A stretch of DNA of 64,000 nt from a bacterium (lineage in GTDB: Bacteria > Electryoneota > RPQS01 > DYHQ01). Shown here one piece after another: positions 22,601 to 58,349 of this stretch. Positions within the stretch are counted from its first letter, which is position 1. Each line of letters opens with the position of its first letter. The stretch covers positions 1 through 64,000 of the forward strand of contig JAUXGA010000013.1 in NCBI GenBank assembly GCA_030622545.1. Reading direction: 5' to 3'. The notes beneath the pieces are model-generated. The model worked only from the letters and a program-made list of their open reading frames with translations. It ran no database searches and was not told the DNA's origin. The position numbers were made by a program, and so were the translations under genes.

Positions 22601-22723
22601 CCATTTTACTTCAGGATGATTGTACAAACTCTGGGCATGCGCAGGAGAAATCGCAACTCCACATAGGCTGAGCAGCAACAGAATCCATCCTGTCAGAAAA
22701 TATTTTCTCATGAATAGTCTCAT
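19640..22723 (-). CDS. Fusion: gluzincin-like protease, TolB-type propeller, Omp85-like barrel
   Basis: A 1027-residue outer-membrane protein. The signal peptide ends near residue 30. An N-terminal peptidase-MA-like domain carries HEYTH at 133-137 and a third zinc-ligand candidate, Glu193, in WFAEGTAQF. This is an intact gluzincin pattern. Residues of roughly 320-650 form a PD40/TolB-like beta-propeller (FPRLSPDGKKITFIS, YYPRWSPDGSQLVAAS, DLSSDGRTLALTV). The C-terminal third ends like a BamA/D15 surface-antigen barrel (GLPGMRGYSFYSLGGERT, LFCDVGDAWVGDL, RYYLTVLFDFYTPF). It should place a protease and propeller at the outer membrane. It overlaps the M6-like gene by four bases, in the porU operon. 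Confidence 0.82.
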   Translation of the reverse strand: MRLFMRKYFLTGWILLLLSLCGVAISPAHAQSLYNHPEVKWNSFETENFIIYYADGLSNIANLAAKIAEEIHEPLCELYDYRPDTKVSLIFQDNDDIANASSYFMNNKISFWSTAMAWELRGTHHWLRNVVTHEYTHMIQLGASRKWSRRFPAAYIQWMGYEPERRPDVLYGFPNRVASYPYPAVTIPGWFAEGTAQFQFTGDGYDFWDSHRDMLLRMAVLSDNLLSLEEMGYFGKTSLGSEMVYNQGFSLTKYISDNSGGPEVLEKISDAMQAPYPITLSRALKKTTGKSGRAWYRAWKAQLEQEYTAVQNAIAPTVVPTDTIPTEGFVNLFPRLSPDGKKITFISNQGRDYWSQSNLCLYDIESDEVEIVAGSVQGATCWLPDTSGILFSRRLRSPRTGSLQYDVFVYLVEKKKSIRLTRGLRAEGVDLSSDGRTLALTVNEAGHRDLALMPMPENFTSKKFKPLTMDDVIYRHRGGDLFQYYYPRWSPDGSQLVAASSLNEGRNIEIFRVSPERDSLWLKETISGQNMEMRDPSFCEDGQHIVAAYDESGISNIYRINLENGNREQLTSVIGGAYYPDLRDGKLTFCDFTGEGFKVCLVQNPEPIKIPPSHLDEETYASKVPAPTYDNHYTIAEASSYKPRFDNLYWYPRVMVDYETVKLGSYVWLGDILDKLNFFGGFAINKNQDFDLYGQVEYRVFHPTIFAEVFSIQRRLTQHFDDPQVIIGEKDGVPIFDRYRIRYRYDLAEIDGGLKWPLSRSSHLKLMGVYDRYTAHNRFDDGTAIALNYFKGWSAQLGYFTNKVAPGIDSRVNPSRGYYGFLKYTRANQKFFTGFRIDADKFILVEVYEPYNYNLLEAGFEKYFPLPIGSHAFALRFQGGYIDKTVDPFFHIYGGGLPGMRGYSFYSLGGERTAVATATYRFPIVKQVDWSLFPVSINRIYGNLFCDVGDAWVGDLETDQVKKDVGAGLRIQMHSFYMYPTALAFDVAYGFDRFTHVEEDFEATYGKEFRYYLTVLFDFYTPFLSNH

Positions 22724-25700: not shown

Positions 25701-25749
25701 TTCCGAAAAACAACGCGCTGATAAATCCCAGCCGTAAAACAGCCTTCAA
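22720..25749 (-). CDS. M6-like T9SS cargo protein, predicted catalytically dead
   Basis: A 1009-residue secreted protein: signal peptide, M6/immune-inhibitor-A-like domain, integrin-like FG-GAP repeats (GDFNGDGASELILTG, DIDQDGQDELLLGG, DWDGDGAPEVISE), and a C-terminal type A sorting domain (YPWPNPTNDVSQIRI to SGVYIGIVEVEGG). Where active M6 enzymes have HEFGH before LGLPDLYD, this one has KLFGN (246-250) before WLGLPDLFD. Both His ligands and the Glu base are gone, so zinc catalysis is not expected. It probably works as a structural or binding cargo. The start is a TTG at 25749 with AAGGA 7 bases upstream. It lies 15 bases after porV. Confidence 0.85.
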   Translation of the reverse strand: MKAVLRLGFISALFFGTCAGLAHELTSVPMLENVQATGQRWPVGDTVDVCAIRIDFVPDSLNGTSGDGTMESAFSDSLIIDPLPHDKAYFEDHLTFLEHYYRTVSKGCVPFGRLDVYPEASDNVYRVAHPMWHYNYNLNNDLLNQRLAELFVEALQLADTDVNFADYDAVIIFHAGVGKDFNIGYDETPFDLPSAFITPADFQTYLPDHVNGFQTNDGVIVHQGLILPEGESQAGFELGLNGIMIKLFGNWLGLPDLFDTQGGRSGIGRWGMMDQGSGNVFGLVPARPEAWSRVYMGWEEPTIVWANTELETLHVKRFDGAEDSPEILLLPITETEYYLIQNRSDDPEERGYVECRDRQGRRMQITLDGEITIFGSDFGVMTEADNYDFGIPGAGLLIWHIDETKIQEGLANNRVNVDPEHRGVDLVEADAAQDIGEEYGFGFSGGGTELGAPEDAWWDENDFNKQANGDVLYVNFTNTTFPAARTHDGAYSWYELSDFSPIQAVMSFSMINRSRAPGFPIELTFISDDSMNIFPGDFNGDGASELILTGQNSTVYIIDSTAIARPVELPAWDNFRVADIDQDGQDELLLGGNRFHIVKNLMGEYPLIDSSQDLPKTDVYNYLNAGVTVDGLARILAVRERYFSDESNNKFAFSLALFNNIAELVDTLNFPGDTIWHVSNIIALEPPPSHLWAIGYKAEGYADILVAVALSDEISILWQREEVDLQPLACIATEADTLLWCEQGWLNRLTGATLSDVACSFHHQILDWDGDGAPEVISETGACHLQSGFPVEGFPLRHSVRDIMTADFDGDGQPGLFGDDGNWRYYRHSFHEPRGFPMAKLGSYRFIFHWETDESVEIPTLFSPDYFSSEMQWLDLRHIMSGGAPGSRKIFGAYPDASHDPNPTNFFAIEPGEGAAVYARSDWIYPWPNPTNDVSQIRITLPYSARIHVRLFDIAGHLVDELTANSSGAGPFDLPWNVSNVASGVYIGIVEVEGGGKHERAQIKIAVAK

Positions 25750-25764
25750 TTTTATTTCCTTCTA

Positions 25765-26811
25765 TCAGAAGTTCACGGACAAAGAATAGCGCATCGTATC
25801 GGATAACGGATGATTCTCACCGGCGTTCAAGTAGCTGAAGTCGAAGCGATAGGCACTGTATCTGAGTGAAACACCGAACGTTATCGGAAAAACCTTGCCC
25901 AAATCATCGTTCCAGTATCCCACACGCAAACCGACAAGAGTGCTGTACCAATATTCCATACCGACATTCCAGATGATGGAGCGAATTAAATCCCCATCTC
26001 CCCACGCCGTGGCAATCGCCTCGTAGAATTCGTCCGAAGTTCCATCGTCATTTCGAACGACAAGTTCTTTGTTGATATCGGTTGCGATGGTAAGCCGGTT
26101 GTATTCCTGATCGATGACGTTGTAGGCTAAACCGAATTTCAAATTGGTCGGCAACGGATCCGCTTGAGCGCGGTCGATATAGGCTGCCTTGGGACCCATG
26201 TTGGAAAGATTTGCGCCTGCGGAAAGCCCACGCAGGAACGTTGCTCGATACAGCAACCCGATATCTGCGGCAACGGCGGTGGCTGAGCCGGTTCCTTTTT
26301 CAGCGCCTGCTCCCTGCGGAGAGAGACTCGAGTAGATAATCTTCAGGCCAATGCCCATGGAAAGATTATCACTAATCAAAGCTCCGTAGGCTCCCGAGAC
26401 GGCAACTTCAAAACTTGAGAAAGTTCCCATAGGATTATTGTTTTCGTCTCGTCTTTCGGTTTCGCCCAGATTCAGGAAGATAATGTTCCCTCCAAACGTG
26501 CCCCATTCGTCGACATCGTGGATATACGCCAGGTAGCTGTAATAGAGGTCGGAAAGTTTAAATTGCGGCAACCACCGGGCGTACATTGCGGTAAACTGCC
26601 GTTTCTGCTGAAATCCCAAACCTGCGGGGTTCCACCAGACTGCTGTTGCATCATCCGCCAGGGCGACGAAGGCTTCTCCCATTCCGGTCGGCCGAGCGCC
26701 AGGCGCAATCTTTAGAAAGAGCATGGTCGCTTGGCTCACCCCGGCCGCTTGCGCGGGAAACACGGAGAACGCCAGCGCTATTACGAGAATGACACACCCA
26801 AATCGTTTCAT
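25765..26811 (-). CDS. porV: Type IX secretion system protein PorV
   Basis: A 348-residue outer-membrane barrel of the PorV (LptO) family. It shuttles cargo from the T9SS translocon to the PorU sortase. It has a signal peptide (KRFGCVILVIALAFSVFPAQA), then FLKIAPGARPTGMGEAFVA and DDATAVWWNPAGL, the family signature. The start is the ATG at 26811, which has GGAGGAGC just upstream. A longer in-frame reading would run into a repeat element and is not believed. It follows porU and precedes a T9SS cargo gene, a textbook attachment-complex arrangement. Confidence 0.9.
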   Translation of the reverse strand: MKRFGCVILVIALAFSVFPAQAAGVSQATMLFLKIAPGARPTGMGEAFVALADDATAVWWNPAGLGFQQKRQFTAMYARWLPQFKLSDLYYSYLAYIHDVDEWGTFGGNIIFLNLGETERRDENNNPMGTFSSFEVAVSGAYGALISDNLSMGIGLKIIYSSLSPQGAGAEKGTGSATAVAADIGLLYRATFLRGLSAGANLSNMGPKAAYIDRAQADPLPTNLKFGLAYNVIDQEYNRLTIATDINKELVVRNDDGTSDEFYEAIATAWGDGDLIRSIIWNVGMEYWYSTLVGLRVGYWNDDLGKVFPITFGVSLRYSAYRFDFSYLNAGENHPLSDTMRYSLSVNF

Positions 26812-26876
26812 TTGCTCCTCCGAGCTTTTTTTATTTTTGATTCTTTTATTCGTTAGAACATATCCTAAAATGTTAA

Positions 26877-26949
26877 ATTCCGGCCGGGTTACGCGTGCCA
26901 GTTGCATCGTTTGGCCTACCGGAATCTGCGCTGAAACCGGCTCGGCGAG
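26877..26949 (+). repeat. 73-bp structured repeat family, copy D
   Basis: The left end is identical to B and C, and the length is exactly 73. The right end is AAACCGGCTCGGCGAG. The interior is diverged, but the inner stem is kept as GCGT/GCGC. An A-U pair has become G-C, and the fourth pair a U-G wobble. It lies between the porU stop and the porV ribosome site, so a readthrough porU-porV message would carry its complement. Confidence 0.8.
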
Positions 26950-26956
26950 TGAAAAT

Positions 26957-29900
26957 TCATCTCAAGATGACAAGCTTACCGACTTTTTCCGAACGTGCTC
27001 CGGCGGCAGATTTAGCGATAACTTTGAAAAAATAAACACCGTTCGCCAGCTCATGCCCCATCGCATCGCGGCCATCCCAGGAGCGGGTCTTGTTGCTTCG
27101 GAACCCGTAGCCGGTATCCAGCCCCTCCATGGAAAACACCTGCTTTCCGGTCAAAGTGAATAGCTTTAAATGAACCTTGGCTGCCGGCTGGGTCAAGAAA
27201 TAGGTGAAATAGGTATGGTCCTTCATCGGATTCGGCCAGTTCAGCACGTCACGTAATTCGAAGCCCGCCGGACCTTCTTCGCCGACGAAAAATGAGAGCG
27301 ATTGCTGGTTCAGATTATTAAAGCTGTCCCACGCTTCAATCACGAGGTGATGTTCACCTTGAGAAAATGGCCCCAGTCTTTTCTCCAGAGTTCCGCTCGT
27401 ATAGCTGTCCAAATCATAATTGAAAAACGGCGTTAAATCTTCAGATAAGGATTCATCCACCCTGACGACAATCTTATGCCCGACTTCACCGCTTAAATTG
27501 ATGCCGGAGGAATCGGTTATCATCACCGAAAGTAGAGGCGATGAACTCACCGGATCTCCGAGTTGGAAACTTTCTGTTTCGAGCCAAGCTGTAATGACGG
27601 GCGGTAGGCTGTCCGTTTCGGTTCCTACGGTGGAAGCAATCGGAATATGCTCCTGCACGCCGATGCCATCCGCGGAATCACCCGATGCATTCCTTCCGTA
27701 AAAATAGAGACTGATTTTCGCATCAAGCCCTCCAAACGTCACATCCTTCGGAACGCGGAAAGTTGCGGAGAATTGGCCATTATGGACTCCGGCTGTTCCG
27801 CGAAAGATGGCATTTCCGGGAAGCCGATACTCAAACGGGTAGTTTTCGTTTCCACACCAGTAGTAAATCGCCGTTTCCTCGTTATCAAATACTCGCGCTT
27901 CGACGATACCCTCGAAATCCTCCCAGACGTTCACCGTATCCCACAGCACTTCACCGGTAATCGTGAAGAGAGACAGCGCCTGCAAAGAATCGGATGAAAG
28001 ATTCGTGACACGCGCCCGGTATTCGGGTGTGGCCAGACGCAAAGCCGGGTCTCCGAAAAGATGGTAGCGTTCGGCATTCACCTGCGAAACACTCTTTGAT
28101 AGCAAGAGCGCTTCTCCCAGCGATGTGCGCGGCAGCCGCTGCTGAAATGTCTCCGTATAGAACCGAACGAGAAAAGCTTTATTACTGATAGGAGTCGTAA
28201 AGCGAGTCGCCGCCAAGCAGCCAATCGCTCCCGCATTCGGTCTCGTCAACAGGACTTCGGGATGACATCTCAGAAGAGGCGTATCAAACTGACCCCAACT
28301 GCAGGTCGCCGCCACGAAAAGCGGCAGCATGCGTCCATTTTCCAGAAGTGGTGTATCTCGATTCGAAACAAAAACCTGTTCGTCCGTCCAGACTTCCGGG
28401 TTGCCATGACCCATGTAATTGACAATGAGCGTTCCTCGATTGATACATTCAATCAGATCCCGTGTAGCATCCGGTTTGAATCCACCCGTCGGACTGGAGC
28501 GAAATGGATAGAATATCTCGTATATCTTTTTAAAACTGAAATACGGCGGGAGAACCGAATTAATGATATCTTCGGAATCTATCGTATGATCGTTCTCTCC
28601 AATTTTGCAGCCCTTCTTGTATTCATCATCGGCCACAAATGTCGCCGTGTTCTTCCACGGGCCGTAAAGAGGATTGCCGCCGTAGCCGGTAATTTTGTCG
28701 AGTACAACCTGCAGCTCATACGCTGTCTGCACGGGCAAACGTCCTGTAAACATATACGGAAGAAATCCGCCGAATTCCGTGTAGTAATCATCCGTGCAGG
28801 TGGAGTGCCATTCCCACGGGGGAAAGACGTTCCGGTCAGAGGTCGCTAAATTCCCTCGATAATCGTAGTTTCCATCTCCCACAAGCAGCAGATAGCGCGG
28901 AGCTTGTTCCGCTCCACTGGGACCGCGCCAGTTATTATGCGCATAGTAGAGAAAATCACGAATAGCGACAGGGTCCGTATTCCCCCAGCCGAACTCGTCA
29001 TAGACATCGCTGAGCTTTACCCGCATCACCGACAACGGCTCTTCAATGTCGGTTTCATGAAACCTTTTCAAGGGTTCCATCATATCGAACCACTCGTCCG
29101 GCGTCAGGATAATCATGTCCGCCTGCAAATCACTTCGACGTAAAAGTTCATAGTCTTCAGTCCCGCGAACATCTTTTCCTATCCACTGCGGTGTTCGAAG
29201 AGCTTCAGATGTGCAGGCGAAATACCGACTCTGAGCGTCCGCCCGTGAACTGTCTACAAAAACGCTGCCCCATCCCATTCGCGGGTGAAGTGGGTCGGAA
29301 ACATCGGCGACATACGCATTGGTCAGGTTAAGCAGTTCGTATCGATACAAACCCGTCGCTTCCGCAGGTGCCTCGATAAATAGCTCTCCCCCACTTGATG
29401 TCAAATCACGCGCGTAATCATACACGATATAATTGAGCAGCGTGGATTGTGTTCCATAATTCTCAATCGTCAGCGTGTTCGGGCCGGGAAACAACGCGCC
29501 TGAAGAGAGCGGGATATCAAAAGGTTGATCCGTATAAAAGCTCTCCAGAATTACGGAATTATTCAGGGAAATCGTCAGTAACGGATTTCCGCCTCCTTGC
29601 CTTTTGAAATCGAGTCGAATATATCCGGAACCATCGCTGACACCCGGCAACGACGTCACGAATGAGCGTGCCTCTCCCGACGCCACGGTCGCCATGTACC
29701 AGAACAAACCCGATTCCGAAAACGCCGACGATTCGAAGATAAAGAAATCTTCATCACGAACAACGTGGCCGCGTGTTCCCGTCACAAGCTGGCCACCAGC
29801 GCCGTTCATCGGGAGCGCATCCATTCTCAGACCGGCAGGTCCGTCCGAATCTACATGGATGAAATAGGTGTTATCCCGCGAAAACGGACTATGATGTGCC

Positions 29901-30817
29901 GCATCATAGAGATAGGAATCTTCGTCAATATAATCATAGCCCTTAAGCGCTTTTCCGAAGAAAAGAAAAAAGTCATCGGTATCAAAAGTTCCATCTCCAC
30001 CGTCGTCGATATAAATCGCATTCTCAAGAAGGACGGTATCTCTGGGAGTATCCACGACCCGAGGCAACAACCGTCCACCATTTCCCAGAAGATGAATATC
30101 CCTCGATGCGCGCCCGATAATATCCAGTCCATGAGACTGCAGCCATGATCCAGTCACCTTGTACAAGCCGGTTTCGCGCACCGATAGCTTGTAAATATCC
30201 CCGTCCGGCCAGGTTGAAACCGTCCGAACTCGCGGAGGCGCTTCCCACCACGCAGCACCGACATCTCCATTCAATGCCAGACGCGAAATAATACTGACAT
30301 CCTTCGGTGTTCTTGCACCGGTTCGGACACCTTCAAATCGAATATGGCAATGAACATAATCTAAAAAAACCGCCTCACCGGCTGCTTCTCGCACCGGGTA
30401 GAGTTCCAAATGCGCGAGCCGAAAATCCCTCCAGCGGAAAACACCGGCCAGCTTGACGAATGCTTCGGGTGTCTCCGACGTCTCCACAATTCGCCATTCG
30501 GGAGCGGGCAGAGCGAGCCCTCCGGACTCTGTGTGCGTCCGTAACCCTTGGACATCTAAAACCGGCGTCGTCCCAGGAGGCACAACAATATAAACATGGC
30601 GTACGGGTTGGCGCAGCCCGCCCGCAATCTTCTCGTCTGTATCCACCCAACCCCGAACAAACGCTCCCGTACGAATCGTATCCGAACGCATAACTGTCGG
30701 CGGGCCGGGCTTATAGACAAACTGACACCCGTCAGAATTTGAAATCCCCAGATCGAGGCTGCTCGCTGTCAGAGTCACAGGAAAGCTGATAAGGAAGAGT
30801 AGCCAGAAGCAAATCAT
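26957..30817 (-). CDS. porU: Type IX secretion system sortase PorU
   Basis: A 1286-residue C25 (gingipain-family) cysteine protease that removes sorting domains and attaches cargo at the cell surface. The signal peptide covers 1-19. The C25 domain contains APRYLLLVGDGNYDYRGN. It carries the catalytic His804 in NYMGHGNPEVW and Cys839 in AATCSWGQFD. The C-terminus has its own sorting-like domain (LNWPNPMKDHTYFTYF to NGVYFFKV). It is followed 145 bp later by porV. It has its own promoter (31027-31055) and a leader of about 200 nt containing a possible attenuator. Confidence 0.93.
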   Translation of the reverse strand: MICFWLLFLISFPVTLTASSLDLGISNSDGCQFVYKPGPPTVMRSDTIRTGAFVRGWVDTDEKIAGGLRQPVRHVYIVVPPGTTPVLDVQGLRTHTESGGLALPAPEWRIVETSETPEAFVKLAGVFRWRDFRLAHLELYPVREAAGEAVFLDYVHCHIRFEGVRTGARTPKDVSIISRLALNGDVGAAWWEAPPRVRTVSTWPDGDIYKLSVRETGLYKVTGSWLQSHGLDIIGRASRDIHLLGNGGRLLPRVVDTPRDTVLLENAIYIDDGGDGTFDTDDFFLFFGKALKGYDYIDEDSYLYDAAHHSPFSRDNTYFIHVDSDGPAGLRMDALPMNGAGGQLVTGTRGHVVRDEDFFIFESSAFSESGLFWYMATVASGEARSFVTSLPGVSDGSGYIRLDFKRQGGGNPLLTISLNNSVILESFYTDQPFDIPLSSGALFPGPNTLTIENYGTQSTLLNYIVYDYARDLTSSGGELFIEAPAEATGLYRYELLNLTNAYVADVSDPLHPRMGWGSVFVDSSRADAQSRYFACTSEALRTPQWIGKDVRGTEDYELLRRSDLQADMIILTPDEWFDMMEPLKRFHETDIEEPLSVMRVKLSDVYDEFGWGNTDPVAIRDFLYYAHNNWRGPSGAEQAPRYLLLVGDGNYDYRGNLATSDRNVFPPWEWHSTCTDDYYTEFGGFLPYMFTGRLPVQTAYELQVVLDKITGYGGNPLYGPWKNTATFVADDEYKKGCKIGENDHTIDSEDIINSVLPPYFSFKKIYEIFYPFRSSPTGGFKPDATRDLIECINRGTLIVNYMGHGNPEVWTDEQVFVSNRDTPLLENGRMLPLFVAATCSWGQFDTPLLRCHPEVLLTRPNAGAIGCLAATRFTTPISNKAFLVRFYTETFQQRLPRTSLGEALLLSKSVSQVNAERYHLFGDPALRLATPEYRARVTNLSSDSLQALSLFTITGEVLWDTVNVWEDFEGIVEARVFDNEETAIYYWCGNENYPFEYRLPGNAIFRGTAGVHNGQFSATFRVPKDVTFGGLDAKISLYFYGRNASGDSADGIGVQEHIPIASTVGTETDSLPPVITAWLETESFQLGDPVSSSPLLSVMITDSSGINLSGEVGHKIVVRVDESLSEDLTPFFNYDLDSYTSGTLEKRLGPFSQGEHHLVIEAWDSFNNLNQQSLSFFVGEEGPAGFELRDVLNWPNPMKDHTYFTYFLTQPAAKVHLKLFTLTGKQVFSMEGLDTGYGFRSNKTRSWDGRDAMGHELANGVYFFKVIAKSAAGARSEKVGKLVILR

Positions 30818-47105: not shown

Positions 47106-49121
47106 ATGCGCAACAGAGGAGCAATCTTCATCACACTCATCCTGGTCATCTGCCTGATGTTCGCCGTATCGGCTTGGGCAGCAGCGAATCCGAAAGCCCA
47201 CCGTGCTGACCGGGAAACAGCGTTTCGTCTGCCCTATTCCGGAAATGGGCATCTGGACCAAAACGACGTTCAGTATCGGTATAACAAGACAACAGATTAT
47301 GGTGTAACCTGGACAGACATCATGCAGGCAGGCGACCTGTCCGACCTTGAGGGTTGGAATGGCGAAATGTACGATTTCGGCTCGCTATGCGACAATGACA
47401 ACAACGTGCACTATATGGGTGTCTTGAACGCCTTCACGAATGCGGCCGACAATGGCGTTTACGACGTTCATACAACAGACGGCGGAACGACATGGGTTCG
47501 GTCGCTGATTGCGGCTGAGGGAACGAACACCTTCATTTCTGCGAGTGAAGCCAAGGATGCCGCTGGCAACCTATACTGTCTCATCGCTGGCAGCGACGCC
47601 AGCGAGAATGTCACTTTCTGGGGAACCAAGTCAACTGATCATGGCATGACTTGGAGTGCACTGCTCGTAGTCGCTGCGGCCCCCGGCGATATAGACGCGA
47701 CTGCCTGCTACCCGCACCTGGCCGAAAATGCCAGCGCTAACTACTGTTTTTTCCAGTTCCAGGAGGCGGTCGCAAACTTTGAGCAGTATGTCGGTCGTTT
47801 TCCCACTGATATGAGTGCTGGTGCCACAATTGTCTCACTGAACGACTATTCCGGCACGAATTACAGCTATTATATCGGTGCTTGCGGACCAATTGCCTAT
47901 GATCCAACAAATAACGCCCTTTTCTGCTGTTTCCGTAACGCCGACGTGTCGGCCACGGCAGTTTACTATTCCGATGATGCGGGGGCAACTTTTGACGCTG
48001 GTTCAGAAATTGCCGGTGCACAACGATACCCATCTGTAGCGTTGAATTCGGCTTCTATGATTCCTTGCGTTTTTTCCAACGTCGGTGTGCCGGGCGCTGG
48101 TGAATATCACCACGATTGGTTCGCCTACGATGATGGAGGTTACGGCGGTGGTCTTTGGACAGATCAAAACCCGATTGACTCCCTGCTTTATGACGGCTCT
48201 CGTGACTTGCTCTATGTCCATCAGGGTCACTTCTTCGATGCCACCCATGCAATCAGCATGTGCAATGTCTGGGGAGATTTCACTCCGGAAGGTCTCCTTG
48301 TAGATTATTCTACGGATGGTGGCGCAACGTGGGCCGGCGGCTGGAAACTCTGGGACATTTTCGATGACGGCTTGGTTGGCGGTTATATTGAGCAGTGTCA
48401 ATTGGACGGCGGAACCGGCGGCGTGGCCTACATCACTTTCTGCGCCAGGGAAGGCGAGACGGATCTCACTCCGCCTGTCATCACCGAACAGACACTCGTG
48501 ACTCCCGCCACTGAACTGGGCCCCTATGTGGTCAGCGCATTCTTTAGCGACAACGAATGGGTCGATTATGAAGGTTGGATCTGGGTGAACTGGATTTGCT
48601 ATTCCCACGGTGCTGAATGGAACTATGCGGAACAGGACAGCCACACCTGGACGGATCCAGAAACCGCCTCCGGAACTTACTACTTTACCGTTCCGGATAC
48701 CCATGCGGATGGCAGTCAGGTCGCAAATGGAGATACCATCTATTTCTATTGCGATGGCTACGATTACACGGGGAACTACGCCGCGTATGGGGTGGAGTAT
48801 GTTATCGCCGGCGTGGAATATGTGATAGCCGAGAGACATCCTCATCCGGTGCAGCCAACCGTCTTCACACTCTATGGGAACTACCCGAACCCGTTCAACC
48901 CGACAACTACGATTCAGTTTGATGTGGCAACGCGTGCTCGTGTTGAGCTGAAGGTCTTCAATGTTCTGGGTCAGGAAGTCGCTACGCTTTTGGATGGTGT
49001 GCATTCCGCCGGAGCGTATTCGATTCCGTTCGATGCATCCGATTTACCCAGCGGTGTTTACATCTACACTCTTTCTGCCAAGGGCTTCACCGAAAGCCAC
49101 AAGATGGTACTCTTGAAATAA
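47106..49121 (+). CDS. T9SS cargo protein with BNR/sialidase-like repeats
   Basis: A 671-residue secreted protein. The signal peptide ends near residue 26 (VSAWA-AANP). The body has Asp-box-like repeats, such as TTDGGTTWVRS, STDHGMTWSA, SDDAGATFDAG and STDGGATWAGG, which suggest a beta-propeller of sialidase type. An Ig-like stretch follows (TPPVITEQTLVTPA). The last 80 residues form a type A sorting domain (YPNPFNPTTTIQFDV, FNVLGQEVATLLDG, LPSGVYIYTL). Catalytic residues of a sialidase are not obvious, so a binding role is as likely. The ribosome site is GGAGGT. Confidence 0.85.
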   Translation: MRNRGAIFITLILVICLMFAVSAWAAANPKAHRADRETAFRLPYSGNGHLDQNDVQYRYNKTTDYGVTWTDIMQAGDLSDLEGWNGEMYDFGSLCDNDNNVHYMGVLNAFTNAADNGVYDVHTTDGGTTWVRSLIAAEGTNTFISASEAKDAAGNLYCLIAGSDASENVTFWGTKSTDHGMTWSALLVVAAAPGDIDATACYPHLAENASANYCFFQFQEAVANFEQYVGRFPTDMSAGATIVSLNDYSGTNYSYYIGACGPIAYDPTNNALFCCFRNADVSATAVYYSDDAGATFDAGSEIAGAQRYPSVALNSASMIPCVFSNVGVPGAGEYHHDWFAYDDGGYGGGLWTDQNPIDSLLYDGSRDLLYVHQGHFFDATHAISMCNVWGDFTPEGLLVDYSTDGGATWAGGWKLWDIFDDGLVGGYIEQCQLDGGTGGVAYITFCAREGETDLTPPVITEQTLVTPATELGPYVVSAFFSDNEWVDYEGWIWVNWICYSHGAEWNYAEQDSHTWTDPETASGTYYFTVPDTHADGSQVANGDTIYFYCDGYDYTGNYAAYGVEYVIAGVEYVIAERHPHPVQPTVFTLYGNYPNPFNPTTTIQFDVATRARVELKVFNVLGQEVATLLDGVHSAGAYSIPFDASDLPSGVYIYTLSAKGFTESHKMVLLK

Positions 49122-49179: not shown

Positions 49180-49287
49180 CGTGGGCTGTGATGAATGATG
49201 TACTTGGCACAACTCTTAAGAAGAAACGCAAGAAAACGAATTGGCTTGCAAAGGCCGGAGCAAACCTATAGCACAGGAGGTTTTGAG

Positions 49288-52200
49288 GTGAGCAGGCGAG
49301 CAATTTATCTGGTGCTCCCTATCTTCCTTTTTATACTGATTGCGCCCGCGATGGGTGCGGTCACTGGGAAGATTGCCGGTGTTGTAAAAGACAGGGCAAC
49401 CGGTGAGCCTTTGCCGGGAGTAAACATTCTTATCGTGGGAACGACCCAAGGGGCGTCAACCAATATCGACGGCGAGTACTTCATTCTGAATGTACGCCCC
49501 GGAACCTATGACCTCCGTGCCTCCGCCATCGGTTACAAGGCGATGACGCTCACGGGTGTTATAGTTGTTCAGGACCTCACTAGTGAGCAATCTTTCCGGA
49601 TGGAAGAATCGGTGCTTATTGGAGAAGAGGTCACGATTACCGCCGAACGGGATATCGTCCGCAAAGATATCACGTCATCGACACATATTGTTACCCGCGA
49701 AGAAATTGAAGCCCTTCCTGTAACGACGTACCAGCAGGCTCTCGCAACGACAGCCGGAGCGGTTGGAACCGGAACGAATATTCATATTCGAGGCGGTCGG
49801 CGCGACGAGATTCTTTATCTGGTCGATGGACTTCAAGTAAAGGATCCGCAGTTTCAGCGTCGTTCTTTGGATTTGGGATCAGGCTCTATCGCCGAAATGA
49901 TTGTTTTAACAGCAGGTTTCAATGCTGAATATGGCGACGCGCAATCCGCTGTCGTGAATCTGGTCGTCCGCGAAGGAGACCCGGAATATCACGGCCAGGC
50001 GCGCCATCTTATGGATCTGGAAGGGGATGAGCATTACCAGAACTATGACTATACGGAAGCTTCGATATCGGGTCCTGAACCCATCACGAATTATATTCTA
50101 CCGCGTTTGGGCACCCGCATTCCCGGAACCATGAGCCTTTTTGCTTCCGGCAATGTTTGGTCACGGAATTCCAATGCACGAGGGGTGCCTGTTAACACGA
50201 GTGACTGGTATCGCCATCAGGTAACTGATCTCTTTGGTTTGGATGTGCGCAAGAACTTTGCCTATTCAGCCTCGAGTATGAAACTGACGTACGTTCCAGC
50301 TCAGAAATACAAGATCGCCTTGGGATGGAATCAATCCCAGCAATGGGAAAACGACTATTGGTATCGACTTTCACGACACTTCCCCTACGACTTTTCACCG
50401 GAACAACAAAGCACAGGCATTCATAATCTTTCCGGTATCAAAGGCTACACATCCCATGCGAGGGACTTCCCCAATCTCTTCGGAATCGATGATGACGGAG
50501 ACGGTCGCATTGACGAAGAGGCTTTGAATTGGGCTGACGACGATCTGGACGGCTTGATTGACGAAGACCTTCAGCTTTATGAATACAATGCCAATGATCA
50601 CGTCCGAGGGGATCGTATTCGCGATCAACAGTTGTCCGCGAGCTGGAATCACACCATTAATCAGAAGACATTCTACACGATTAAGCTGAGTGCTTTCACG
50701 GCCAATCGCGTGGTGTCGGCTAATGGTAAATCACCGGCGGAGTATGGCGAACCCGCAGAACCTTTCACGGATCTGCCCGATGCTGAAGGTCGGTATAACA
50801 GTCGGTACGACATCGGCGAACCGTTTACGGATACCGATAGCGATGGTCTATACGATTCCGGAAATCCCGCGAACGCGACTCCATCGGTCAACGGTTTCCA
50901 TATCGCCGGTGATGGGCTTGCCGGGAATTATCAGCAATTGGTTCCAGATTGGGCGGATTTTCTTTCGACCACGTGGACAGCGAAGGTCGACGTCACGTCC
51001 CAAATGACGCTCCGGCACCTACTCAAGACAGGTCTTGAATTCAACTACTATGATGGTCAGTCGGAAGATAGACCCTATCCTTCTATCGATAATGGCGGAG
51101 CAGGCATCTACACGGATATTTACCGTACATTTCCCATTCAGGGCGCTATCTACGTTCAAGACAAAATGGAGTACAAAGACATTATTGTCAACGCCGGTCT
51201 GCGTTTGGATTACTGGAATGCCAGATGGACAAAGGAACCGACTGCCAGAACGGACGAAAGCGGAAACTACGTTGACTATGAGATACCGGCCAAAGCAGGG
51301 AAGCTCTATCTCTCGCCGCGATTGGGTGTTTCTTACAGCGTAACCGAAAAGGACGTATTCCATTTCAACTATGGCTATTTCTATCAGCGCTCACGTCTGG
51401 ATTATTATTACACGGCCGTCAATCAACTTCAAACAGGCGGTACTCCGATTGTCGGAAATCCTGATCTGGATCTGATGAAAACTATCGCCTACGAGTTAGG
51501 TGTTCGTCACCAGTTCGCTCAAGATTTCTTAATCGACATCTCGACGTACTATAAAGACATTAAGAACTGGATTCAAACTGCCTCTCAGAACCAACTCTAC
51601 TTTGACCTTTATGGCCGTGTTCTCGTCGGTTCAAATGCGGCGATTTACTACAATGCGGATTATGCGTCCGTCCAGGGTTTCGAGTTCAATGTCACGAAGC
51701 AATACGGAGCAAATCTCGCCGGGCGATTGACGTATACTCTGTCCTGGTCGAACGGCAAGAATTCGTACAACATCGGCTCGGACGTCACACGCGCCAACTA
51801 CATCGATCCGAAACGAGAGACTCCTCTCGCTTGGGATAGACGCCACGCGATCGTCGGCAATATTGGCTTCAATTTCCCTCTGAAAGGGGAACCATTTTCG
51901 ACAGAGTGGCTGCAGTCCGGATGGAACATTAACGTCCTTTCGCAAGCGCTGTCAGGTCTGCCCTACACGCCGACGAATGCCAACGGCACCGACATCGAGG
52001 GGCGCGAATTTTCCGAGCGCTCGCCTTGGACGTACACCACTGATTTGAATGCCGAACGAGATTTCAATTTTGGTAATTTGGCCTGCCATCTGCTCATCGA
52101 GGTGCGCAATCTCTTCAACGCTCGCAACGTTCTTGGATGGGATCGCAACCGGTATACGATGGATACCTACGTGGAGCACGGTGGACAAGCGGGATATGTC

Positions 52201-52308
52201 AACGACAATATTTCCCCCAATTATGGTCTGAACCCCAAAGCCGGACCGAACCCTGATGCCTGGGATGAACGTCGTCTCCTTCGGCTGGGGCTCGCGGTTG
52301 ATTTCTAA
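49288..52308 (+). CDS. TonB-dependent outer-membrane receptor (SusC/CirA-like)
   Basis: A 1006-residue receptor for TonB-powered uptake. It has a signal peptide, then a carboxypeptidase-regulatory-like domain (about 25-100, GVVKDRATGEPLPGVNILI). A TonB-box-like EEVTITAER, a plug domain (ALPVTTYQQALATTAGAVG, IRGGRRDEILYLVDGLQV) and a long barrel follow. An extracellular loop at about 400-433 carries Asp-rich repeats (DDDGDGRIDEE, DDDLDGLIDED) like those in the next gene. The start is GTG at 49288 with GGAGG 7 bases upstream. An earlier in-frame ATG would add 31 residues lacking signal character. Confidence 0.92.
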   Translation: MSRRAIYLVLPIFLFILIAPAMGAVTGKIAGVVKDRATGEPLPGVNILIVGTTQGASTNIDGEYFILNVRPGTYDLRASAIGYKAMTLTGVIVVQDLTSEQSFRMEESVLIGEEVTITAERDIVRKDITSSTHIVTREEIEALPVTTYQQALATTAGAVGTGTNIHIRGGRRDEILYLVDGLQVKDPQFQRRSLDLGSGSIAEMIVLTAGFNAEYGDAQSAVVNLVVREGDPEYHGQARHLMDLEGDEHYQNYDYTEASISGPEPITNYILPRLGTRIPGTMSLFASGNVWSRNSNARGVPVNTSDWYRHQVTDLFGLDVRKNFAYSASSMKLTYVPAQKYKIALGWNQSQQWENDYWYRLSRHFPYDFSPEQQSTGIHNLSGIKGYTSHARDFPNLFGIDDDGDGRIDEEALNWADDDLDGLIDEDLQLYEYNANDHVRGDRIRDQQLSASWNHTINQKTFYTIKLSAFTANRVVSANGKSPAEYGEPAEPFTDLPDAEGRYNSRYDIGEPFTDTDSDGLYDSGNPANATPSVNGFHIAGDGLAGNYQQLVPDWADFLSTTWTAKVDVTSQMTLRHLLKTGLEFNYYDGQSEDRPYPSIDNGGAGIYTDIYRTFPIQGAIYVQDKMEYKDIIVNAGLRLDYWNARWTKEPTARTDESGNYVDYEIPAKAGKLYLSPRLGVSYSVTEKDVFHFNYGYFYQRSRLDYYYTAVNQLQTGGTPIVGNPDLDLMKTIAYELGVRHQFAQDFLIDISTYYKDIKNWIQTASQNQLYFDLYGRVLVGSNAAIYYNADYASVQGFEFNVTKQYGANLAGRLTYTLSWSNGKNSYNIGSDVTRANYIDPKRETPLAWDRRHAIVGNIGFNFPLKGEPFSTEWLQSGWNINVLSQALSGLPYTPTNANGTDIEGREFSERSPWTYTTDLNAERDFNFGNLACHLLIEVRNLFNARNVLGWDRNRYTMDTYVEHGGQAGYVNDNISPNYGLNPKAGPNPDAWDERRLLRLGLAVDF

Positions 52309-52328
52309 GGAGAGGGGAGAACCAACTC

Positions 52329-54566
52329 ATGAGATATTTTTCCTTACGCCTTTTCATCCTTGCTCTTCTCATCATAGGCATGATAACCGCTGCTGTTGCG
52401 GTGGCACGTACTGTGGCCGATAGGAGCGGAAAGGGCGATCCAACTATTCAAGTAGCGGATCCCGAGTCACGCAAGTCAATGATCATGCACGATGTCGGAA
52501 ACGTGCGAATGGCGCTCGCGAACTGGGGAGAACAGGGAAATCCGGATGGTGTGGTGGGCTTCAAGGGATTTGAATTCCCCATCAATTCCGGCAACGATTT
52601 CCTTTTTTCCGCCGGAGTCTGGATTGGAGCCATTCTTAATGATGAACGGCTCGTTTCGACGGCAACCGACGGTGATAACGGCACCAACGAGTTTTATCCC
52701 GTGCATATTGGAACTTATCCAGCGGCAAACGCTGGAGATTTCGGAGACTGGATTGTGTCATCCACCAATTTGGAAGAACTGAGTGGTCGGTTCTATGTGA
52801 AAGGCGCCAAAGAGGTGGATGACGACGGAGACTGGACCATTGCGGATGATTTGGATGGCGACGGAAAGCCATCCTCCGACTGGGACGGAGACAGCTTAGA
52901 TGCCAATGGCGACGGCAATCCTAAGTATGACCCGGAACCTCATATTGACGAGGATCCTGCCGGCGATATCTCCAGCGACTATATCGACAACGACTTCGAC
53001 GGTCTAGTTGATATGGAAGACCCCGATTTCGACGGCGATGCCAATCCCGGAAGTCTGGATGATGACGGCGACGGCCTGTTCGATGAAGACGGCGCGTCGC
53101 GAGGTGTTCAGGAATACTTCTGCATCTATCAAGATGACATCGAGGACACCTATGTCGGCAGTCCAGACGCTGATGGACATACGCCTCTTAAAATTCAGGT
53201 TTCACAGCGAACTTACGCCTACCCGGAAGAATACGCGGCGGATTTCATCCTGTTGGATTTCACAATCCGCAACATCGGGCAATTGACATTGCATGATGTC
53301 TTTATTGCCATGTTCTCGGATCCTGATATCGGAGCGCGTGGTGAAGGCGGTGACGCTGCTTCCCTCGATGACTTCAACTACTATGACGCCGAGCGGCTCA
53401 TGATGGTCCAGTACGACGATCCGAATGACTATGACGGGGCTGGCCCGGGGGTATTCGCCATTCGCGTTGTACAAACGCCGGTGCCGTTGGAGGACCTCAA
53501 GATAACCTTTGCCAATTTCGAGCGAACTTCCGGTGGCGATCCCGACTTGAATATCGACAAATACAACCTTATCTCTTCCGGTACAATTGCACCTCCGACG
53601 GAAGAAATGGGGGACTGGCGTATGCTTCTCGGTTTCGGTCCGGCTGAAGGTGAGTTTGCAATTGCTCCAGGTGAAGAATTGCCCATCACGCTCGCCTTCA
53701 TCGCCGGAGATGACACGGCCGACGTTTCGAAAAATGCGGACTGGGCTCTGCGCTTGTTCCTTAATGATTTCCAGGGTCCATCAGCGCCGAACGCACCCTC
53801 TTTTTCGGTGACTCCGTATTCCGACCACGTCCGTATTTCGTGGCGACCTAATGCAGAAACATCCATTGATCCGATTACCCAGGAAATGGATTTCGAGGGC
53901 TACACCATCGAACGCTCGTACAATCAGCAGGACTGGCATACGCTGGCTTATTACGATTTGATCGATACGCTTGAAGGTGAGTTCGAATGGCAGAATTACA
54001 ATCTTGGGATGCCGACGGATTGCACTTGGTTTGAGGATGCTCATTTTGAATACTACTTCGATGATACGGATCTCATTCCGGGGCATACGTACTACTATGT
54101 CGTCCGAGCCTTCGATAAAGGTGTTGAGGGCGCCGGTATTCTGATTTCATCCCGCACGGGGAATTATCTCGAAGCTCAAACGGTCTTGAACGAAGAAACG
54201 GGAGCGCCTGAGGAACTGGCAGATGTTTATGTGTACCCCAATCCGTATAAAGGTGCCCATAAGGGTGAGGCCGGTGGTGAAGTCAACCCGTCAAAGGGAT
54301 TGATTGAGTATCCCCGCAAACTCTATTTCAAAAATCTCCCGGCCAACTCCATAGTGGGACAATGCAAGATTCAGATTTTCTCACTCGCCGGCGATCATCT
54401 AGCCACCCTCGATCATCACAACGGAACGGACCAGACGACGTGGAACCTCATTACAAAGAATAAACAGGAAATCGTGAGCGGCATCTATCTCTACACGGTA
54501 GAGTACAAGAAGCCCGGGAGCGGCTCGTGGGACCGCTACGTGGACAAGTTTGTCGTCATTAAGTAA
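52329..54566 (+). CDS. Asp-rich secreted protein with T9SS-type sorting domain
   Basis: A 745-residue exported protein with a signal peptide ending near residue 26. An acidic region at 163-255 consists of DxDxDG-type units (DDDGDWTIADDLDGDGK, DNDFDGLVDMED, LDDDGDGLFDEDG). These resemble calcium-binding thrombospondin-3/dockerin loops. A large beta-rich region and a fibronectin-like part follow (SVTPYSDHVRISWRPN). The end is a sorting-like domain (VYVYPNPYKGAHKG, FSLAGDHLATL, SGIYLYTVEYK). It lies 20 bp after the receptor. It occupies the SusD position but shows no SusD helices, so it may be a surface partner of the receptor. Confidence 0.8.
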   Translation: MRYFSLRLFILALLIIGMITAAVAVARTVADRSGKGDPTIQVADPESRKSMIMHDVGNVRMALANWGEQGNPDGVVGFKGFEFPINSGNDFLFSAGVWIGAILNDERLVSTATDGDNGTNEFYPVHIGTYPAANAGDFGDWIVSSTNLEELSGRFYVKGAKEVDDDGDWTIADDLDGDGKPSSDWDGDSLDANGDGNPKYDPEPHIDEDPAGDISSDYIDNDFDGLVDMEDPDFDGDANPGSLDDDGDGLFDEDGASRGVQEYFCIYQDDIEDTYVGSPDADGHTPLKIQVSQRTYAYPEEYAADFILLDFTIRNIGQLTLHDVFIAMFSDPDIGARGEGGDAASLDDFNYYDAERLMMVQYDDPNDYDGAGPGVFAIRVVQTPVPLEDLKITFANFERTSGGDPDLNIDKYNLISSGTIAPPTEEMGDWRMLLGFGPAEGEFAIAPGEELPITLAFIAGDDTADVSKNADWALRLFLNDFQGPSAPNAPSFSVTPYSDHVRISWRPNAETSIDPITQEMDFEGYTIERSYNQQDWHTLAYYDLIDTLEGEFEWQNYNLGMPTDCTWFEDAHFEYYFDDTDLIPGHTYYYVVRAFDKGVEGAGILISSRTGNYLEAQTVLNEETGAPEELADVYVYPNPYKGAHKGEAGGEVNPSKGLIEYPRKLYFKNLPANSIVGQCKIQIFSLAGDHLATLDHHNGTDQTTWNLITKNKQEIVSGIYLYTVEYKKPGSGSWDRYVDKFVVIK

Positions 54567-54617
54567 AAAGGACTTGCCGACGATGAAGCGAAAGTCCCGA
54601 TGAGAGGAGAACCTTCC

Positions 54618-55415
54618 ATGAAAACCATACACCTTATCTTTTTGATTCTTCTGACTGCGGTACTTGTATCCGGCTGTGCAGACCCCCGGACACCCCCTCC
54701 GGTTACTCCGGAGCCCACCTATACGGAAACGCTGCTGCTCTGGGATGATATCGAGTCGGGGGATGTGCCTCAAAGCGCTACCTTTACCGTAAAGCGAGAG
54801 CTTGTCTCCGCTCGCCTGACCGTTGCAGGCTACATCACACCCGACGATGATATTCTGTGGATGGAAGCCGTCATAAACGATTCCATCCCTCCGATAGCAG
54901 ACGAAATAACGGGTTATCATATTGCAATTGAAGATTTAGGACCCGAAGAAGATTGGACTATAGAAGACAGCATCACTGCCGCGGCTCTTCAAGATAGCAT
55001 ACAGTGGGCAACTGATGATACCACCGCAATGGGAGTTCGACGTGATTCCCTCACGCTTGTTGTGGACGATCGTTTCACATTGGCTCTCTGGCTGGATGAG
55101 CCTGCGGCTGATACCACAGCAAAATACCCTGAGGCCATCTACACTGATGAAGCCGGTACCTTAAGTGGACAACATTTCTATTTAAGTCCGACAGATTCAG
55201 CGTCATGGAAAAAAGCCCGCTCCTTCCAGATGCTCTTGCGGCAATGGACGGCGGCTGACCCTGCAAACGTAGGACGTCCGATTGAAGTCAACTGGCTTGC
55301 GGAGCTGTCGTCAGGAGAGCAACCGAGCGATCATACTGTTCGAGTCAAACTCACGGGAATAGATTCCCGCATTATAGGAACCATCGTGCTTGTTTATAGA
55401 GAGAGCGAAATATGA
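54618..55415 (+). CDS. Lipoprotein of unknown function
   Basis: A 265-residue lipoprotein with the lipobox LVSGC (Cys20). A Pro/Thr linker follows (DPRTPPPVTPEPTYTE). The body is acidic and beta-rich and I do not recognise it. The start is ATG at 54618, which has GAGGAGA 7 bases upstream. Its stop overlaps the start of the PorV-like gene (ATGA). The operon position suggests a subunit of the receptor/PorV-like system. Confidence 0.75.
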   Translation: MKTIHLIFLILLTAVLVSGCADPRTPPPVTPEPTYTETLLLWDDIESGDVPQSATFTVKRELVSARLTVAGYITPDDDILWMEAVINDSIPPIADEITGYHIAIEDLGPEEDWTIEDSITAAALQDSIQWATDDTTAMGVRRDSLTLVVDDRFTLALWLDEPAADTTAKYPEAIYTDEAGTLSGQHFYLSPTDSASWKKARSFQMLLRQWTAADPANVGRPIEVNWLAELSSGEQPSDHTVRVKLTGIDSRIIGTIVLVYRESEI

Positions 55416-56467
55416 GCCACTCACATTCGCACTGGAAAGGTTTTTTTGTCTTTCCAACGATGCTTATCATCCTCATCACCGCCTTTGCCCCTCCCGCACT
55501 TGCTCTGGAGAAAGTCGGAACGACCTCCATTCAGGTGTTAAAAATTCCGGTGGGTGTGCGAGGCGTCGGGATGGGGAATGCGCAAGTCGCTTCTTGTCGA
55601 GATGCGTCTTCAATTTTCTGGAATCCCGCCGGGTTGGTACACGTGGAACAGTGTGAAGCGGTTGCCGCGCAAATCAACATGCCCGCCGACATCCAGCTTA
55701 ATACGTTCGCCTTCGCTCACAACTTCGGCGCAAAAGGAGCGGTGTCCCTCCATATTGTTAACCTGTACACCGGGGACATGAAAGTTCGTACTTTTGAGCG
55801 TCCAGAGGGAACCGGCGAGTATTTTAATGCCTACGATTTCATTCTGGGAGGAAGTTATGCGCGCCGCTTGACTGACCGTTTCTCCCTCGGAGGGAATCTT
55901 CGCTATCTCAGATCCGGATTGGAAAACTCTACGTATAACGGTTTATCTGTTGATCTGGGAACTCTTTACCAGACCGGTTTGCGATCACTCGTCTTAGGAA
56001 TGTCGATCCAGAATCTGGGACCGAATGTCACCTATTCCGGCGACTACTCAGACTACCGAAATGAAACCAAGAGCGGCGGCCTCCTTGAAGTCGGCTATGA
56101 AGACGCTGCGCTTCCAACGATGTTCCGACTGGGAGTGTCGGCTGACTTCTTTGAGATGATCAACGTAGAGCCCGATGAAAAACATGCGGCGACAATCGCG
56201 GTTGAAATGAATCACCCGAATGACAATCGCGAACGTTTGAATATCGGCGGGGAATATATCTGGAATAAAATCCTCGCACTCAGGCTGGGCGGCAAGTTCG
56301 CCTATGATACAGAAAGCTTTGCGGCTGGACTGGGATTGAATATTCCCCTAAGTCCTAACAATTATTTCACGTTTGATTACGCCTACTCTCATTTCGGTGA
56401 CATCACAGACGCCGTGGACGAGTTCATGATGCAGCCGCATCGTTTTTCATTGGGATTCGCCTGGTAG
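55412..56467 (+). CDS. PorV/PorQ-family outer-membrane protein (second copy)
   Basis: A 351-residue barrel of the UPF0164/PorV-PorQ family. The signal peptide ends in ALALE. The signature is IQVLKIPVGVRGVGMGNAQVA and CRDASSIFWNPAGLVH, and the end is RFSLGFAW. It is clearly a paralogue of porV at 25765, but it sits in a receptor operon and not with porU. It may be a cargo-specific shuttle for the T9SS proteins encoded next to it, or a separate transport barrel. Confidence 0.88.
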   Translation: MSHSHSHWKGFFVFPTMLIILITAFAPPALALEKVGTTSIQVLKIPVGVRGVGMGNAQVASCRDASSIFWNPAGLVHVEQCEAVAAQINMPADIQLNTFAFAHNFGAKGAVSLHIVNLYTGDMKVRTFERPEGTGEYFNAYDFILGGSYARRLTDRFSLGGNLRYLRSGLENSTYNGLSVDLGTLYQTGLRSLVLGMSIQNLGPNVTYSGDYSDYRNETKSGGLLEVGYEDAALPTMFRLGVSADFFEMINVEPDEKHAATIAVEMNHPNDNRERLNIGGEYIWNKILALRLGGKFAYDTESFAAGLGLNIPLSPNNYFTFDYAYSHFGDITDAVDEFMMQPHRFSLGFAW

Positions 56468-56498
56468 GAGAATCATTTTTCTCAGAGGAGCCATTCAA

Positions 56499-58292
56499 AT
56501 GTTGAAAGATATTTTGCGGCTGAGCCTTTTAAGCCTCCTGCTCATCGCTTTCGCCGGGTGCGAAGTCAGTGATCCGGGAAGCGCTCTACCAAACCAGCCG
56601 CCGATAACACATCTCGTTCTCGCGCCGGTGGATTCGACGGAATTCAACCATTTTGCTCATCTGAAATGGTCCGGTACGGATCCCGATGGTGACATCAGCG
56701 GTTTTTGGATTTTAATTGACGCAGAAACGTTAATGTTTACCACAGCTTACGAGGACACGATTGCTTTCTATGCGCCGGGAGACACGACCGTGCCGCACCG
56801 GGTTCAGGTGACAGCCGTGGATAATGACGGGCTTGTCGATCCATCGCCGCCCAGTCGCTTCTTCTACGCGACGAACACGCGACCTGCATTGGCTTTCGGT
56901 TCAGAAAGTCTGGAGGACGGAGCTGAAACAGGAAGAGGGTTTGCAATTGAGCTTGAAGGGGAGGATCTTAATCCCTCCTCTCTCTACTACTCTATTGCTA
57001 TCGATGATTCTCTAACCGGATGGCAACCTTGGTCGGCGCACTCAACATTCCTGTTCTGTGACAAGAGTCTCGAGTTCCTGCCGTGCACGACTGCCACATG
57101 GCAGGATGTTCCCTGCACAGCTACGCTCATCGATAAAAATATCCTGACGCCCGGCGAACACACTATCTATGCTCGCGTGAAAGACGCGGGCGAAGCACTG
57201 GGAACCGACATGGTTTCGGTGGATTTCACGGTTGTTGAAGGTGTGCGCCCTGCCATGGACACAGTTGTTACCGGAGTTTATGGCGCAGATGATTTTTATC
57301 TCGACGGCTCTGTCTTTTATCGAACCAACCGAGAAACGCAGATTACTTTCAGCGCTACCGCTGGTGGTTCTGGACAGATTAATGCTTACCGCTACCATCT
57401 CGGCGAAGGAACCTTCACCAGCGAGGATCCGTGGCAGGAAGAAGCGGAAATCGTGCTTCTGAACGCTCCTTCGGGAGAGTATGCGTTCCAGATTATGGCT
57501 CGTGACGTCGCGGGACAGTTCAGTGACACGATTGCTTACAGCATCTATATTCTCGAACCGGAATTCACAGACAGTATTCTGATTGTTGACGAAACCCGAG
57601 ACGGAACCGGTAACCCCGGCAGTCCTGATGATGAGCAGGCAGATAACTTCTATGCGAGCATAGTGGGCAGTCGCCCCTATGGCGAGATAGACTACGCCAC
57701 TCACCAGGTGGGGGGCGTGAGCTACTTGTCACCGCTGGATGTTTATCATTTCGGCCTGATTATCTATCACACCGATGATCGAGCCAATTACAATCTTAAC
57801 GCGAACAGAGGCATTCTGGCCGAATATATGGACCGGGGAGGCAAAGTCATTTTCAGCGGCTGGAATTTACTGGAGCCCTTCGGGGTTAGCGGTCCCGATT
57901 CAGCTTATTATTCTGCAACGGGAGCAGAGCCTGCGCGATTTGCTTATAATTACTTGCGACTCTTCTACGCGAACCGAGCCAGCTGGCGCGAAGCCGAAGG
58001 TCTCACGGGCGTCGGCGGGTATCCGGATATCACGATAGACCCGGCTAAAGTCCCTTCAAGTTGGAACGGCACGATTGACAAATGCTGGACCTTCAACAAT
58101 CGAGGTGAAACCATCACTACGGGTACCTTTAACTCCGCTAATAGTGAATCCCAATTTCAGGGACGACACTGCGCCCATGTTTACCTCGGCCCCACCTACA
58201 GCGTTGCAGTTTTCGGCATTCCACTCTACTTCTGCGACGAAACGCAGGCGGGAGCCTTCATGGAGCAACTGCTGACGGAAATGAATCCGTAG
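56499..58292 (+). CDS. Lipoprotein with Ig/FnIII-like domains and a GATase-like C-terminus
   Basis: A 597-residue lipoprotein with the lipobox FAGC (Cys21). The N-terminal part (about 30-350) is beta-sandwich-like (HLKWSGTDPDGDISGFWI, GEHTIYARVKDAGEALG, GEYAFQIMARDVAGQF). The C-terminal part (about 358-597) reads DSILIVDETRDGTG, HFGLIIYHTDD, RGILAEYMDRGGKVIFSGW, VAVFGIPLYFCDE. This is an alpha/beta pattern like ThuA/GATase-1-like domains without a recognisable catalytic Cys. It closes the receptor operon and is followed by a terminator. Confidence 0.75.
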   Translation: MLKDILRLSLLSLLLIAFAGCEVSDPGSALPNQPPITHLVLAPVDSTEFNHFAHLKWSGTDPDGDISGFWILIDAETLMFTTAYEDTIAFYAPGDTTVPHRVQVTAVDNDGLVDPSPPSRFFYATNTRPALAFGSESLEDGAETGRGFAIELEGEDLNPSSLYYSIAIDDSLTGWQPWSAHSTFLFCDKSLEFLPCTTATWQDVPCTATLIDKNILTPGEHTIYARVKDAGEALGTDMVSVDFTVVEGVRPAMDTVVTGVYGADDFYLDGSVFYRTNRETQITFSATAGGSGQINAYRYHLGEGTFTSEDPWQEEAEIVLLNAPSGEYAFQIMARDVAGQFSDTIAYSIYILEPEFTDSILIVDETRDGTGNPGSPDDEQADNFYASIVGSRPYGEIDYATHQVGGVSYLSPLDVYHFGLIIYHTDDRANYNLNANRGILAEYMDRGGKVIFSGWNLLEPFGVSGPDSAYYSATGAEPARFAYNYLRLFYANRASWREAEGLTGVGGYPDITIDPAKVPSSWNGTIDKCWTFNNRGETITTGTFNSANSESQFQGRHCAHVYLGPTYSVAVFGIPLYFCDETQAGAFMEQLLTEMNP

Positions 58293-58314
58293 CTTGACGC
58301 TATCATATATGAAA

Positions 58315-58349
58315 AGAAAAGAGGTTCCGATTTTGGAACCTCTTTTTTT
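58315..58349. terminator. Bidirectional terminator between the receptor operon and nfnB
   Basis: AAAAGAGGTTCC pairs with GGAACCTCTTTT around a six-base loop, followed by a long T-run (and A-run for the other strand). It separates convergent transcription. Confidence 0.92.

Follow-up and report, generated by a model that had tools for sequence, protein, structure and literature searches.

Five co-oriented genes of a bacterium of the phylum Electryoneota, within the FCB group, encode a TonB-dependent receptor, a type IX secretion system (T9SS) cargo protein, a small lipoprotein (LP3), a barrel of the PorV/PorQ family and a large lipoprotein (LP5). They lie in a stretch of 64,000 nucleotides (positions 1 to 64,000 of contig JAUXGA010000013.1, here called the window), and their order is conserved throughout the orthologous loci of the phylum. 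The set may specify an outer-membrane uptake complex of SusCD-like type without SusD, in which the cargo would be retained on its own PorV-family barrel beside the receptor; we regard this reading as evenly balanced.

Layout and conservation of the locus

The five open reading frames occupy one strand (+) at 49288-58292 and are separated by junctions of +20, +33, -4 and +31 bp, and a stem with 16 pairs and a T tail closes the set, so that the operon described in the original prediction is present with its small gaps, its overlap and its terminator (Table 1). The receptor begins at a GTG codon with the sequence AGGAGG 7 bases upstream; the mechanical start of this reading frame is at 49195.

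Table 1. Features of the locus and its upstream neighbour in the window
Feature	Position	Strand	Characteristics
BNR/Asp-box repeat protein	47106..49121	+	ordinary type A T9SS sorting domain; TIGR04183 41.7 bits, above cut-off
TonB-dependent receptor	49288..52308	+	N-terminal CarbopepD_reg_2 PF13715, Plug PF07715 and barrel PF00593, all above Pfam cut-off
T9SS cargo	52329..54566	+	signal peptide, beta-rich N-terminal region with Asp-rich insert, FnIII-like domain, PorU/PorZ-type sorting domain
Variant C-terminal sorting domain of cargo	54225..54563	+	PNPY ... NLP ... GDH/L ... W[ND]L ... SG.Y ... KFV.[IL][KR]; alignment A7
Small lipoprotein LP3	54600..55415	+	kept in class I loci
PorV/PorQ-family barrel	55412..56467	+	NF033709; proposed cargo anchor
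Large lipoprotein LP5	56499..58292	+	about three Ig-like domains and an alpha/beta domain; also in class II and Zixibacteria modules
Intrinsic terminator	58314..58349	+	16-bp stem, then T run

Family searches agree with most of the assignments first made from the sequence. The receptor matches the Plug domain at 40.8 bits and the TonB-dependent barrel at 78.9 bits, and is not a SusC/RagA protein by TIGR04056 (70.1 bits against a cut-off of 368). The PorV/PorQ-family barrel, the second of its kind in the window as had been claimed, scores 200.3 bits on NF033709 (curated cut-off 90), stays below the equivalog cut-offs for PorV (NF033710, 83 against 250) and PorQ (NF033711, 88 against 220), and matches PorV among PDB chains (7e-14). 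The cargo, LP3 and LP5 match no Pfam or NCBIfam family above cut-off. Both lipoproteins have lipoboxes (SGC and AGC), and in most class I loci the lipobox of LP3 is followed by the motif C-x-D-[PE]-R. The AlphaFold model of LP5 (pLDDT 88) has beta-sandwich domains followed by an alpha/beta domain, and Foldseek returned only generic Ig/FnIII arrays for it; the 'GATase-like end' that had been assigned to this protein is plausible only, the model placing an alpha/beta domain there with no family match.

A canonical porU-porV pair lies at 25765-30817, about 20 kb from the locus, with PorV, the first barrel of the window, at 25765-26907; SprA is encoded on another contig, and the two together indicate that the genome has a T9SS. 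Its secretome is very large, with 104 type A matches in 2.66 Mb. A T9SS M6-like metalloprotease relative adjoins porV-porU in the window at 22720-25749 (-), with 471.9 bits against a cut-off of 600, and a TolB-propeller/Omp85-type protein is encoded at 19640-22723 (-).

Orthologues of the barrel (at least 46% identity) were collected from 39 Candidatus Electryoneota genomes by barrel similarity alone, ignoring their neighbours, which gave 18 loci with the query itself counted. The order receptor, cargo, LP3, barrel, LP5 is exact in all 18, each of them from Candidatus Electryoneota; most junctions overlap or measure up to about 30 bp, and one receptor is cut by a contig end. Absence of a conserved order had been named as the refutation of a single unit; the order found in 18/18 loci upholds that unit and rules out chance clustering of five genes. 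An orthologue of the BNR protein precedes the set in 14 of the 17 other loci (one is a fragment), and on this gene-order evidence the true unit probably comprises six genes, one more than the original prediction had recognised.

Of 36 Electryoneota genomes sampled, 33 carry receptor-cargo-barrel sets, 59 in all and of several classes, and the TonB receptor is retained in every class. Three are found in the present genome: the window locus; C20, whose receptor and cargo are separated by a beta-helix lipoprotein and followed by barrel and LP5; and C15, where a type A T9SS protein comes after receptor, cargo and barrel. Scanning 84,980 species genomes with the class II cargo alignment, which under-samples breadth beyond Electryoneota and Zixibacteria, placed contiguous receptor-cargo-barrel-LP5 modules at six loci titled Zixibacteria and one untitled near-twin (L215, L216, L228, L229, L231, L241, L244), with a further locus, L214, of uncertain taxon. 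The repeats that the original prediction had proposed to count are hence present in the genome, in its phylum and in another FCB phylum. Four records (L167, L174, L176, L214) titled Puniceispirillum, Caldithrix abyssi DSM 13497 or Acetofilamentum carry Electryoneota-like modules, and their titles look misassigned.

Cargos also occur apart from such sets. Many in Zixibacteria stand alone or in tandem arrays, and C16 in the present genome is a cargo-family gene with neither barrel nor receptor as neighbour. Strict one-to-one pairing of cargo and barrel is excluded by these orphans, because cargos of this kind are common. In L240 (Zixibacteria CP070674.1) eight genes of the cargo family, for proteins of about 450-920 aa, follow one another in tandem with no receptor or barrel.

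The cargo sorting domain and its barrel

With its signal peptide, Asp-rich stretch and C-terminal sorting domain (CTD), the latter below every library cut-off, the cargo is the T9SS-sorted Asp-rich surface protein that had been predicted. Its last 91-136 residues belong to a family, A7, with the pattern PNPY ... NLP ... GD ... W[DN]L ... SG.Y ... GKF[VA][IL][IV][KR]. A plain type A cargo was rejected, as these CTDs stay under the type A cut-offs (TIGR04183, 14.6-21.2 against 23, the window protein reaching 21.2; PF18962, 17 against 27) while that of the upstream BNR/Asp-box protein passes. The type B model TIGR04131 matched one of 23 A7 CTDs, with a best E of 0.022. The commonest NCBIfam matches of A7 members are the C-terminus of PorU (21/23) and PorZ (20/23), and in a search of the A7 profile against all PDB chains PorU (0.00026) and PorZ (0.07, weak) were the sole matches, solved type A CTDs such as that of RgpB not being among them. 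The cargo CTD thus appears akin to those of PorU and PorZ through a weak match. The cargo itself has no C25 peptidase match and, along its length, no match to the PorU or PorZ models.

This kinship bears on what may become of the cargo at the cell surface. PorU and PorZ retain their CTDs, PorU remaining docked on PorV and PorZ on PorQ (PMC10202324, PMC5562754, PMC11285876), and it has been suggested that cognate PorV-like barrels may shield such CTDs from cleavage (PMC10202324); according to PMC11285876, the determinants of CTD retention are not known.

Genes for A7 proteins and PorV-family barrels are linked well beyond this locus. In the present genome a PorV-family gene lies within 1.2 kb downstream of 7 of the 13 A7 matches and of 0 of 97 type-A-only proteins (Fisher p=5e-8). 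Since A7 was built from proteins selected for a barrel neighbour, the test that omits the three seeds of this genome weighs most, and it gives 4/10 against 0/97 (p=4e-5); the four cases are PorU, a second C25 peptidase on C7, and CTD proteins on C12 and C18. Seven other genomes contain 57 A7 matches, of which 25 have a PorV-family neighbour within 1.6 kb. At L047:6748-13190 the second C25 peptidase, with 1802 aa and a sorting domain, precedes a PorV-family barrel and a lipoprotein, an arrangement resembling a PorU2/PorV2 pair. On C18 the gene immediately behind that of a giant T9SS protein (7841-codon open frame) encodes a PorV-family barrel with an OmpA peptidoglycan-binding domain fused to its C-terminus (L048:8008-9450), which could combine in a single protein the roles of PorP and PorE and tether an adhesin to the cell wall.

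The same genomic linkage bears on the nature of the barrel. PorV is a FadL homologue (PMC12578637) and the barrel of the locus weakly matches Toluene_X in Pfam (E 5e-5), as would suit a channel for small molecules or lipids in a set that imports hydrophobic compounds. We consider such a channel very improbable, for the match to the PorV/PorQ family is far stronger and the barrel genes specifically adjoin proteins with PorU/PorZ-type CTDs, the PorU-PorV pair included.

Sequence distances in 56 complete sets associate the barrel with the CTD in particular. Of all 90-column windows along cargo and receptor, those at the C-terminus of the cargo follow barrel distance most closely (rho 0.72-0.74), and the partial rank correlation with the barrel falls from 0.52 for the CTD to 0.26 for the remainder of the cargo and 0.12 for the receptor. 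Barrels and CTDs clustered separately fall into near-identical classes (adjusted Rand 0.98). The sequence rows being related, this covariation is supportive of contact between barrel and CTD and is not proof of it.

Proposed anchoring of the cargo and its possible function

In the arrangement we propose, the cargo would exit via Sec and then the T9SS translocon, and the PorV-family barrel would capture it by binding the PorU/PorZ-type sorting domain. This domain would remain uncleaved, and the cargo would stay on the barrel as PorU does on PorV and PorZ on PorQ. Docked at the surface beside the TonB receptor, it would act as the substrate-binding partner. LP3, LP5 and the BNR protein may be accessory binding or processing proteins, the BNR protein being released or attached through ordinary type A sorting.

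The original prediction suggested that the barrel may be a dedicated shuttle that delivers the surface partner to the receptor. A dedicated partner of the cargo is favoured by our results; shuttling to the receptor appears less likely than permanent anchoring because the CTD is of the PorU/PorZ kind, which stays on PorV or PorQ. The main rival is a transient shuttle, with the barrel only extracting cargo from the translocon and passing it to PorU or the receptor, after which the CTD would be cleaved; such a route would resemble that of type B CTDs with their PorP/SprF shuttles. Cognate shuttle pairs have been shown in F. johnsoniae (PMC12618676), the barrel-CTD covariation fits a shuttle equally well, and orphan cargos could share one, as three orphan type B substrates do. 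We nevertheless think it unlikely, as the CTD is closer to the uncleaved CTDs of PorU and PorZ than to type A, and the presence of a barrel gene in every operon is more in keeping with a partner in fixed stoichiometry than with a shuttle that acts catalytically.

Anchored cargo need not imply uptake: the set could be a surface display or adhesion module with the receptor as a signalling or assembly partner. The Ig/FnIII-rich lipoprotein and cargo are in keeping with such a role, and giant adhesin-like T9SS proteins adjoin other PorV-family genes, including that of the OmpA-fused barrel. Those barrel-adhesin pairs, however, have no TonB receptor, and the receptor of the present locus, which no class lacks, has a transporter's plug and barrel, so that we find this role improbable.

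For an uptake complex retaining its cargo on the barrel, the partner would stand where SusD stands in SusCD. A profile search for SusD (PF07980) found it in 0 of 39 Electryoneota genomes, the Bacteroides control being positive, which sustains the predicted parallel with SusCD-type loci in which T9SS cargo takes the place of SusD. A SusD-like cargo was rejected, PF07980 being absent and no SusD appearing among the Foldseek matches listed. The AlphaFold model of the cargo is of moderate quality (pLDDT 71), with its Asp-rich part unstructured. Among the Foldseek matches listed PorU came first, and a second group (E about 1e-4 to 2e-6) consisted of the beta-sandwich found in glycoside phosphorylases of the GH94 type. 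This model-based match is a lead only towards glycans, and the BNR, beta-helix and glycosidase-like beta-sandwich neighbours hint at a glycan ligand. A beta-helix profile (LPhelix) that had picked up sorting domains as contaminants was left out of the evidence.

Relation to known systems

Loci that pair a TonB receptor with a partner are textbook knowledge. The combination seen here, a PorV-family barrel with a PorU/PorZ-type CTD in the place of SusD, was not found in the open-access literature searched; the earlier statement that no characterised system of this composition is known agrees with that search. In an article on Electryoneota (PMC10439189) the main text mentions neither T9SS nor TonB. 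The locus brings together TonB uptake and type IX secretion, machines that have been investigated separately. We tentatively propose a class of TonB uptake system in which SusD is replaced, in two or more FCB phyla, by T9SS cargo that a dedicated PorV-family barrel keeps hold of permanently; the PorU/PorZ-type CTD would be a general signal to stay on one's own barrel. If true, this would account for surface binding partners in phyla with TonB receptors and without SusD, explain the many PorV paralogues in such genomes (14 in this one), and suggest a reason, open to test, for the retained CTDs of PorU and PorZ, the CTD subtype marking proteins that stay on their cognate barrel. The subtype would also be a sequence handle for predicting cargo-barrel pairs.

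Dedicated barrel-cargo pairs are known from type B CTDs with PorP/SprF (PMC12618676, PMC9143113), and also from PorZ-PorQ. As in those type B sets (SprB-SprF, PG1035-PorP-PorE), a cognate barrel is encoded here beside a surface cargo, with several pairs per genome and some orphan substrates; the present barrel, however, is of the PorV/PorQ family and not PorP, the CTD family is different, and TonB receptors were not reported in those sets in the literature examined. With the PorU-PorV/PorZ-PorQ attachment complex the locus shares a PorU/PorZ-like CTD beside a PorV/PorQ-family barrel, and PorU and PorV are adjacent in the window too, whereas the cargo has neither a C25 peptidase match nor, along its length, a match to the PorU or PorZ models, and the set includes a TonB receptor. 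In BtuB-BtuG and other complexes of TonB transporters with surface lipoproteins (cited in PMC12578637) a surface partner likewise sits on the transporter, but that partner is a lipoprotein, where here it would be T9SS cargo on a barrel. The SusCD/RagAB systems of Bacteroidota also encode a CarbopepD_reg_2 TonB receptor with a surface partner and lipoproteins, in several copies per genome; the present sets differ from them in having no SusD, in a receptor below the SusC model cut-off, and in a partner that is T9SS cargo with its own PorV-family barrel.
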